Shown here in pieces: positions 3,187 to 5,527 of a stretch of 64,000 bases of DNA (within the stretch, counting starts at the first letter, position 1; each line of letters starts with the position of its first letter). The translations under genes were made by a program, and so were the position numbers. The stretch comes from Anaeromyxobacter paludicola (GTDB taxonomy: Bacteria > Myxococcota > Myxococcia > Myxococcales > Anaeromyxobacteraceae): contig NZ_AP025592.1 in the NCBI RefSeq assembly GCF_023169965.1, positions 1 to 64,000 of the forward strand, read 5' to 3'. Below the pieces are notes generated by a model that was not told the origin of the DNA, ran no database searches, and saw only the letters and a list, made by a program, of their open reading frames with translations.

Positions 3187-3771
3187 CTACCGCCCCGCGG
3201 CCTCGAGCTCGAAGAGGGGCAGCCCGCCGCGGCGCGCCACCCAGAGCCCGGCGCCGAGCTGCCGGAACCCGGCCCGCGCGAGCCGGGCGCGGTACCAGGC
3301 GCCGGTGCGGAGGTGCACCGCCACGTCCGACGCGCTCCGGTCCACCACCTCGGAGAGGTCGCGGCGCGTGAGCGCCTCCAGGAAGAGGAGCCCGCGGCTC
3401 ATCGCGCCCAGGTTCTCGATCGCCCGCGCGCAGTCCGCGTCGTCGAGGTACTGGAGCACCCCCTGGCAGATCACGAGGTCGTGCCGCTCGCGCGACCGCC
3501 AGCGCGAGACGTCCCGCCGCTCGTGGCCGTAGCGCTCGCAGGCGTGCGGGCTCACGTCCACCGAGCGGTAGCGCGCGCCCGGCCGGTGGCGGCGGAACCA
3601 GTCCCGCCAGAGCCCCGGGCCGGCGCCCACGTCGAGGACCCGCTCGAGCGGGAGGTCGTGGTAGTCGGCGAGGGCGCAGATCGCGCCGGCGAGCCGGGCG
3701 ACCGCGCGGGGGGAGCTCACCCGGCGCGGGCCGCGGTAGAAGCGGGCGTAGTAGGCGGCGTCGAAGCGCAT
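3187..3771 (-). CDS. Class I SAM-dependent methyltransferase
   Basis: A 194-residue protein with a Rossmann-type SAM fold. Motif I is VLDVGAGPG (residues 45-53), the acidic residue after strand 2 is in SVDVSPHA, and motif IV-like [11 protein letters not shown] follows. This pattern is typical of small methyltransferase-11/25 type enzymes; the acceptor is unknown. The start chosen is the ATG giving MRFDAAYY. It has no evident ribosome site, and the frame stays open upstream, so a longer product (up to 4047) cannot be excluded, though it would overlap the divergent rhodanese gene. It runs toward msrA. Confidence 0.85.
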
Positions 3772-3888
3772 CGCGCGCGAGGGTAGCCGATCGCGGGCGG
3801 GGCGGGTGGCGGCGTCGCCCCGCCCGGGCGGTGGCTGCGGGAACGGCGGGGCTCCACTCATCCTTGGGACGGCGGAACGGAGGCCGAG

Positions 3889-4254
3889 ATGGAGCTGCCG
3901 AGGATCACCGTGGAGCAGGTCCGCGCGCGCGAGCAGCGCGGCGAGCGGTTCACCTTCCTGGACGCCCGCAACCCGACGGCCTGGGGCCAGGCCTCCGACC
4001 AGGTGCACGGCGCGCTCCGCGTGCCGGCGGACGAGGTCGATCGCCACACCGCGGAGATCCCGCGGGAGCGGGCGGTGGTCGCCTACTGCACCTGACCCAA
4101 CGAGAACTCGAGCGCCCGGGTGGCGCTCAGGCTCCGCGAGCTGGGGTGGGAGGACGCCTACGCGCTGAAGGGGGGCTACGACGCCTGGAAGCAGGCGGGC
4201 ATGCCGGTCGAGCCGCGGGGCGCCGGGGCGCAGTCCAGCATGACCCCGCCCTGA
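3889..4254 (+). CDS. Rhodanese-domain protein with in-frame TGA (probable selenoprotein)
   Basis: A single-domain rhodanese (sulfurtransferase-like), 121 residues if the TGA at 4093-4095 (codon 69) is read as selenocysteine. Residues 5-68 give the N-terminal half ([10 protein letters not shown]25). Reading through the TGA, the same frame continues with [13 protein letters not shown] and the family's closing motif LKGGYDAW (residues 93-100), then a TGA stop. In cysteine homologues the loop reads YC-x-CPNE-x-x-SAR, so the TGA sits exactly on the catalytic cysteine, giving Y66-C67-T68-U69. A hairpin downstream fits a bSECIS. GGAGG lies 5 bases before the ATG. Alternatives are a pseudogene or a sequencing error (TGC/TGT to TGA); frame conservation after the TGA argues for readthrough. 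Confidence 0.8.
4110..4128 (+). promoter_or_regulatory. Candidate bacterial SECIS hairpin in the rhodanese gene
   Basis: Perfect 7-bp stem GAGCGCC/GGCGCTC (4110-4116 with 4122-4128) closed by the pentaloop CGGGT. The loop begins 21 bases after the last base of the in-frame TGA, and its second base is G. As I recall the bSECIS consensus (loop 16-37 nt from UGA, small apical loop, a G in the first two loop positions), all conditions are met. SelB would bind here to deliver Sec-tRNA. Hairpins are common in GC-rich DNA, so the placement rather than the stem itself is the evidence. Confidence 0.65.
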
Positions 4255-4333: not shown

Positions 4334-5527
4334 TCAGGGCTCGACGGTGGTCACGTACTTCGGCGCGTTCTTCTCGACGCCGATGATCACGGCCGACTTC
4401 ACCGGGTTGTGATCGGCGTCGAGCCGGATGGTGCCGGTGACGCCGGAGAGCCCGCTGGTCTTCTCGATGGCGTCGCGGATCGCGTCCGGGGTGAGGGCCG
4501 AGGCGCGCTTCATGGCGTCGATGGCGAGCAGCGCCGCGTCGTAGCCGAGGGCCGCGAAGGCGTCGGGCTTCGAGTGGTAGGCGGCCTCGTACTTCTTCGC
4601 GAAGCCCTGGACCACCGGCGACGGGTTGTCGGCCGAGTAGTGGTTCGTGAAGAAGCCGCCGTCGAGGGCGCCCTGGGCGATCTCGTACAGCTTCGAGGAG
4701 TCCCAGCCGTCGCCGCCGGCGAGCTGCGCCTTCAGGCCGAGCTCGTGGGCCTGCCGGCCGATGAGGGCCACGTCGGTGTAGTAGCCGGGGACGTAGACGA
4801 AGTCGGGCTTCGCGAACTTCACCTTGGTGAGCTGGGCCTTGAAGTCCTGGTCACCGGACTTGTAGCTCACGTCCACCACGATCTCGCCGCCGAGCTCCTT
4901 GAAGGTCTTCGCGAAGTAGTCGGCGAGCCCCACGGAGTAGTCGTTGCCGACGTCGCGCACGATGGCGGCCTTCGCCACCTTGAGGTTCTGCCGCGCGAAC
5001 TTGGCCATCACCGTGCCCTGGAAGGGATCGATGAAGCAGACGCGGAACATGTAGGGGCGGGTCTTGTCGCCGTCCTTGGTGATCTTCGGGTTGGTCGAGG
5101 CCGGGGTGATCGCCGGGACCTTGTTGGTGTCGGCGATGGGGGCGAGGGCGAGCGTGCGGCTCGAGCCGAGCTCCCCGATGACCACCGAGGCCTTGGCCTC
5201 GGTGATGGCGCGCGTGGCGGCCGTCGCCGTCTCCTCCGGCTTGCCGGCCGTGTCGTACACCTGCAGCGCGAGCTTGCGGCCCTGCACGCCGCCGGCGGCG
5301 TTGGCCTCGTCGATGGCGAGCTTCACGCCGTTGTTCGAGCTCTCGCCGAAGGTGGCCGTGTCGCCGGTGAGCGACGTCACGTGACCGACGACGATCGGGG
5401 CGCCGGCCTGGGCCGCGGGGGCGGCCGTGGCGGCGGTCGTCGCCGCGTGGTCCTGCCCCTCGTTCTTCTTCTGACATGCCGTTCCCGCCGCGACCGCAGC
5501 GAGGGCCAGCACTCCGTACCACCGCAT
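4334..5527 (-). CDS. Branched-chain amino acid-type ABC transporter substrate-binding lipoprotein
   Basis: A 397-residue periplasmic binding protein of the LivK/LivJ family (type I fold). The N-terminus MRWYGVLALAAVAAGTAC is a lipoprotein signal with the lipidated cysteine at residue 18, followed by a flexible Ala/Thr linker to about residue 44. The binding domain begins IVVGHVTSLTGD and includes GVKLAIDEANAAGGVQGR, typical of the family, and later DAFAALGYDA. The start has AGGAG 8 bases upstream. No livHMGF permease genes are adjacent, so the partner transporter lies elsewhere or the protein feeds a shared permease. The ligand could be amino acids, amides or other small solutes. Confidence 0.93.
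   Translation of the reverse strand: MRWYGVLALAAVAAGTACQKKNEGQDHAATTAATAAPAAQAGAPIVVGHVTSLTGDTATFGESSNNGVKLAIDEANAAGGVQGRKLALQVYDTAGKPEETATAATRAITEAKASVVIGELGSSRTLALAPIADTNKVPAITPASTNPKITKDGDKTRPYMFRVCFIDPFQGTVMAKFARQNLKVAKAAIVRDVGNDYSVGLADYFAKTFKELGGEIVVDVSYKSGDQDFKAQLTKVKFAKPDFVYVPGYYTDVALIGRQAHELGLKAQLAGGDGWDSSKLYEIAQGALDGGFFTNHYSADNPSPVVQGFAKKYEAAYHSKPDAFAALGYDAALLAIDAMKRASALTPDAIRDAIEKTSGLSGVTGTIRLDADHNPVKSAVIIGVEKNAPKYVTTVEP

Follow-up and report, generated by a model that had tools for sequence, protein, structure and literature searches.

A rhodanese gene with one in-frame TGA codon

The window analysed here is a stretch of 64,000 nucleotides from Anaeromyxobacter paludicola (contig NZ_AP025592.1, positions 1 to 64,000), and the locus under study is a rhodanese gene with an internal TGA codon (Table 1). 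The first-pass annotation had described a whole rhodanese frame with this codon as its sole interruption; reading of the frame bore this out, and the Pfam Rhodanese domain (PF00581) is recognised on either side of the TGA and spans it (residues 9-103, E=7e-10, 39.6 bits against a gathering score of 22.2). The motif C67-T68-U69 lies inside the domain, which makes the protein a CxU rhodanese in the broad sense. An AF2 model of the protein, which is probably cytosolic, reached a pLDDT of 90.7 and its top PDB matches are all rhodaneses.

Table 1. Features of the rhodanese locus and its two neighbours
Feature	Position	Strand	Remarks
Rhodanese-domain selenoprotein gene (predicted)	3889..4254	+	ATG 3889, 121 residues, Sec at 69, terminal stop TGA 4252-4254
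Sec codon TGA (predicted), residue 69, 'U' of the CxU motif	4093..4095	+	Same codon TGA in relatives
Cys67 codon TGC, two residues N-terminal to Sec	4087..4089	+	Kept in relatives
bSECIS hairpin (predicted), 7-bp stem, loop CGGGT, loop 21 nt past TGA	4110..4128	+	
Shine-Dalgarno-like GGAGG, 5 nt ahead of ATG	3879..3883	+	Direct reading of the sequence
Methyltransferase, divergent upstream neighbour, outside the rhodanese unit	3190..3774	-	Pfam Methyltransf_23
Periplasmic amino-acid-type binding protein, convergent downstream neighbour, outside the rhodanese unit	4334..5500	-	Pfam Peripla_BP_6

The gene is solitary, standing between a divergent methyltransferase gene and a convergent gene for a periplasmic binding protein. 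In the window, MsrA is encoded two genes away; at the locus of one relative (L151), the genes immediately upstream encode a pirin and a GAF-domain protein that resembles a free-methionine sulfoxide reductase. We take these neighbours as weak functional hints. Comparison of the neighbourhoods of the loci revealed synteny at the level of lineages only, with no partner recurring across phyla. An Rfam scan of the 64-kb window found a tRNA-Arg alone. Elsewhere in the window, a small frame on the plus strand (1388-1663) carries a duplicated motif, VVHRPxxxGxDLPAGxxAxxLAPxDY, without a Pfam match.

The TGA codon is conserved among relatives

Firstly, in a protein search, which is blind to the codon, TGA was found at the same codon in a homologue from another genus of the same family (L026, 52% identity) and in one from another family of the order (L055, 55% identity), and at the same place in nine DedA-rhodanese fusions. 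Alignment with Cys homologues, a check that the first-pass annotation had proposed, yielded Cys/Sec pairs, the Sec69 position being occupied by Cys in L027, L056, L057 and the Xanthomonas plasmid protein L207. Cys67 is kept in these four and in all 12 Sec members from Myxococcota, which were retrieved with no selection for Cys67. Secondly, a pattern scan of GTDB genomes (Y/F-C-x-TGA-x-x-E-x-S/T-S-A-R-V/A-A) returned at least 117 stretches; among the 117 matches listed, 116 are rhodaneses in which the frame continues downstream, and L162, a chance match outside any rhodanese, was dropped. The closest among the matches listed are stand-alone acidobacterial proteins, L083 (58% identity), L158 and L151 (both 55%), with TGA at the same codon, and the same holds for more than 100 further relatives among these matches. 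Thirdly, across the phylum (195 genomes) the motif carries TGA 12 times, a Cys codon once and TAA or TAG never, while the reversed pattern, used as a control for the TGA scan, gave 0 occurrences.

Sequencing error does not explain a TGA that is shared by independently sequenced orthologues, and these orthologues, together with the counts in the phylum and the empty control, exclude both an error and a fresh nonsense mutation. Random decay past the TGA in relatives would have spoken against a selenoprotein; instead, the downstream protein is conserved along with the codon. Within the family, the stand-alone Sec form is present in 2 of 24 genomes, that of the window and one other, a patchiness which suggests that the gene may be transferred or dispensable. 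A scan of viral contigs for the Cys form gave no match. In three relatives from the order (L028, G008:C62; L062; L067) the active-site loop lacks the C-x-U/C pair, for instance VVYGADDAEADAPRVA in L028, and these proteins are possible pseudo-enzymes.

A hairpin downstream of the TGA recurs in relatives

The hairpin is made of GAGCGCC (4110-4116), the loop CGGGT (4117-4121) and GGCGCTC (4122-4128). It had been described beforehand as a 7-bp hairpin with this loop, starting 21 bases past the TGA; the hairpin is there, but the 21 bases run from the TGA to the loop, and the stem starts after 14. Published bSECIS rules (PMC13188914) ask for a loop of 3-9 nt with a G in its first two positions, a stem of 4-16 bp, a UGA-to-loop distance of 16-37 nt and an energy <= -7.5. 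With -12.1 kcal/mol, 7 bp, the loop CGGGT and a spacing of 21, the hairpin conforms to these rules, as the first-pass annotation had stated.

Taken for this single, GC-rich gene, the hairpin is within chance (z -0.47, with 63 of 200 shuffles as good; p=0.06 against synonymous recoding). What carries it beyond chance is its recurrence at the same place in relatives. The bSECIS rules are passed by 81% of 116 Sec genes among the matches listed, against 12% of recodings in which the protein is unchanged and codons are drawn from the same gene; in an upstream control region, 8% pass, against 5% of recodings. Over the 45 nt past the TGA, relatives have a mean folding z of -0.88; five control windows gave means of -0.06 to -0.36. 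Codon choice is nearly invariant in 126 distinct sequences retrieved with a pattern that left third positions free: Ala is GCC in 125, Arg is CGT or CGG in 120 and the next codon is GTG or GCG in 125, counts which are not independent as the sequences are related. In the same 126 related sequences, the seven stem pairs are paired in 86% of cases. Shifting one arm by 1-4 nt lowers this figure to 22-52%, and all 1000 within-column synonymous permutations fall below the observed pairing. Among the Cys homologues, L027 (G013:C181, 229-552), from the same family, is followed by bSECIS-like DNA (AGCGCC-AGGGT-GGCG) and is possibly a reversion from Sec to Cys with a relic hairpin.

The genome encodes the Sec machinery

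The first-pass annotation had proposed a search for selA, selB, selD and tRNA-Sec in the same genome. All four are present in this assembly (4.59 Mb, single contig, 99.97% complete): tRNA-Sec scores 75 bits, above the Rfam cut-off, and is reported by ARAGORN as tRNA-SeC(tca) of 99 bases, while selB scores 320 bits summed over its parts (cut-off 242), selA 514 bits and selD 391 bits. SelD is itself of the Sec type, with a TGA within the site LSHGAG-U-ACK and a separate hairpin (loop 33 nt downstream), and is an internal positive control for the decoding of UGA as Sec in this organism. The proposal of a probable selenoprotein with a C-x-U active site is thus supported by the conserved TGA, the recurrence of the bSECIS and the Sec machinery, and from these sequence data we hold it nearly certain that the gene is to be read as a stand-alone CxU rhodanese whose UGA 69 is decoded as selenocysteine.

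Another rhodanese frame of the same genome also contains a TGA (L005, C1:908664-908912, minus strand; FYCANKL-U-GASHEAA), and an 8-bp hairpin follows, with its loop 22 nt past this codon. It is probably the known UxxS form, and relatives of it in the family (L033, L034, L036, L043 and L051) have their TGA in YC-x(3)-U-xxS. Three of these (L033, L034 and L051) share with the CxU set the hairpin spacing (21 nt), the loop CGTGC and an Arg eight residues past Sec; the two rhodanese branches may have inherited this likeness from a common ancestor, or their bSECIS elements may have converged. Three other rhodaneses of the genome (L002, L003 and L004) were considered as Sec candidates and rejected, being ordinary Cys rhodaneses with normal terminal stops.

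The protein falls in a stand-alone subgroup of a known class

The suggestion that rhodanese-related selenoproteins may be a known class proved correct: the CxU rhodanese is listed in reviews (PMC9312934; PMC13188914, as form 3, NCBIfam NF041203 rhodanese_LYCAU), and a passage of PMC13188914 credits form 3 to Zhang and Gladyshev 2005. The 2006 list of selenoproteins of Anaeromyxobacter dehalogenans contains no rhodanese. We found in the literature no laboratory study of CxU rhodanese function; searches for selenorhodaneses, by that term or in connection with DedA or Myxococcus, retrieved no papers, nor did we find a paper combining selenoprotein, rhodanese and DedA.

NF041203 is the best family for the protein and matches 68 of 68 aligned relatives to some degree; with Sec entered as Cys, the protein scores 93.4 bits, below the curated cut-off of 115. 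In a tree built on 112 columns, its nearest neighbours are L055 and L105, followed by stand-alone forms from Acidobacteriota, and it lies apart from a Desulfobacterota/Nitrospirota clade with the LYCAU-type motif; its own forks have SH-aLRT values of 83-91%, from few columns. The tree thus places the protein, with modest support, in a separate stand-alone YCTU subgroup of the CxU class, common to Acidobacteriota and other Myxococcota.

Cys67 and Sec69 may work as a pair

The TGA had been placed where homologues have their nucleophilic Cys. A Cys does stand there in the four Cys homologues, but the alignments disagree on which residue is the first nucleophile. In a profile alignment to 3tp9, the canonical catalytic Cys is matched by Cys67, and Sec69 falls within an insertion of two residues. 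Sec69, for its part, is 26 residues from the GG motif; the catalytic Cys of L003 and of L037 has the same spacing, which favours Sec69 in the catalytic register. As these landmarks are divided and none of the 12 Sec members lacks Cys67, a working Cys67-Sec69 pair is favoured.

SelB and tRNA-Sec would decode UGA 69, guided by the hairpin just downstream, and Cys67 and Sec69 would stand together in the active-site loop. For the chemistry of the pair we propose, tentatively and with somewhat less than even confidence, that one of the two residues attacks a sulfane-sulfur or oxidised-thiol substrate, that the other resolves the intermediate as an S-Se bond (selenenylsulfide), and that this bond is reopened by a thiol system, for example thioredoxin or a low-molecular-weight thiol. 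With such a mechanism the protein would be less a classic thiosulfate:cyanide transferase than a persulfide/thiol redox enzyme, and its function would be sulfane-sulfur or thiol redox chemistry through Cys67-Sec69.

Somewhat less likely, in our view, is that the selenoprotein acts instead as a classic sulfurtransferase, in which Cys67 would be the canonical, persulfide-carrying nucleophile and Sec69 would only tune or protect it; the 3tp9 alignment agrees with such an arrangement, whereas the spacing to the downstream helix and the GG motif sets Sec69 in the catalytic register and the conservation of both residues suggests a pair. Rhodanese-domain MnmH/SelU uses selenophosphate, and by analogy the loop could carry selenide or perselenide. 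The organism makes selenophosphate (selD) and the protein has a weak match to MnmH (E=0.001), but this match is far under the cut-off (17.8 bits where 266 are needed), no selenium genes adjoin, Cys forms exist and there is no conserved partner, so that a role in selenium handling appears improbable. In bacteria termination always competes with Sec insertion, and the UGA could in principle be read at a low level by another tRNA or serve as a regulatory stop yielding a 68-residue product; the dedicated bSECIS-like constraint and the full Sec machinery speak against both, a 68-residue product would end before the GG motif and before the greater part of the active-site loop, and we give these readings very little credence. 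Least credible is a pseudogene or sequencing error, in which an ordinary Cys rhodanese would owe its TGA to nonsense mutation or to a miscalled base, for even though TGC or TGT becomes TGA by a single base change and the hairpin of the single gene is not significant, the same TGA stands in independent genomes ahead of a preserved protein, with no TAA/TAG equivalents, a bSECIS codon constraint and the Sec machinery in the genome.

A broader and more doubtful reading takes in the CxU rhodaneses as a whole, a large cross-phylum set which, among the matches listed, includes stand-alone proteins, proteins with exported-looking N-terminal extensions, DedA fusions and long multi-domain proteins. In this set Sec could be a second chalcogen added beside the canonical loop Cys, converting an ancestral sulfur-transfer loop into a selenenylsulfide redox centre (persulfide reductase). 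We know of no rhodanese with such a centre.

Discussion

The gene at 3889-4254 is well supported as an addition to the CxU rhodaneses, a class that earlier surveys had recognised, and it belongs there to a subgroup of stand-alone proteins. Automatic annotation would probably render it as a truncated or broken gene; read as proposed here, it gives the genome a securely supported selenoprotein, and it reveals a stand-alone subgroup that the curated model NF041203 misses. The 120-odd relatives, in which the bSECIS spacing is nearly fixed at 21 nt, form a natural data set for UGA decoding in GC-rich bacteria. The Cys-x-Sec motif in a rhodanese loop also poses a concrete question, namely whether selenium makes a sulfur-transfer loop a redox centre.

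Among known systems, form 3 of the CxU class (NF041203) shares with the protein of the window the rhodanese domain, the C-x-U motif and Sec at the same position; it differs by its LYCAU-type motif, whereas the window protein is a stand-alone YCTU form below the cut-off of the model. The fusions annotated as DedA family protein/thiosulfate sulfurtransferase GlpE have a similar C-terminal rhodanese with C-x-C/U-PNE and, in their Sec forms, the same bSECIS, but they begin with a DedA membrane domain, while the frame of the window gene starts at the rhodanese and has no DedA neighbour. These fusions exist in a Cys form in Xanthomonas and in Cys and Sec forms in Myxococcota; L058-L061, L063-L065, L070 and L071, from several Myxococcota, are such fusions of a DedA membrane protein with a rhodanese; their CxU motif carries Sec, and they have the same bSECIS. 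Rhodanese-like form 1 (UxxS), exemplified by L005, has in common with the window gene the rhodanese fold, Sec in the active-site loop and a hairpin whose loop lies about 20-22 nt past the TGA, but it belongs to a different branch of the family, with YC-x(3)-U-xxS and not YC-x-U. Finally, GlpE and the canonical single-domain rhodaneses share with the window protein the fold and the DxR and GG...W landmarks, and differ in having one Cys, a loop two residues shorter and no Sec.
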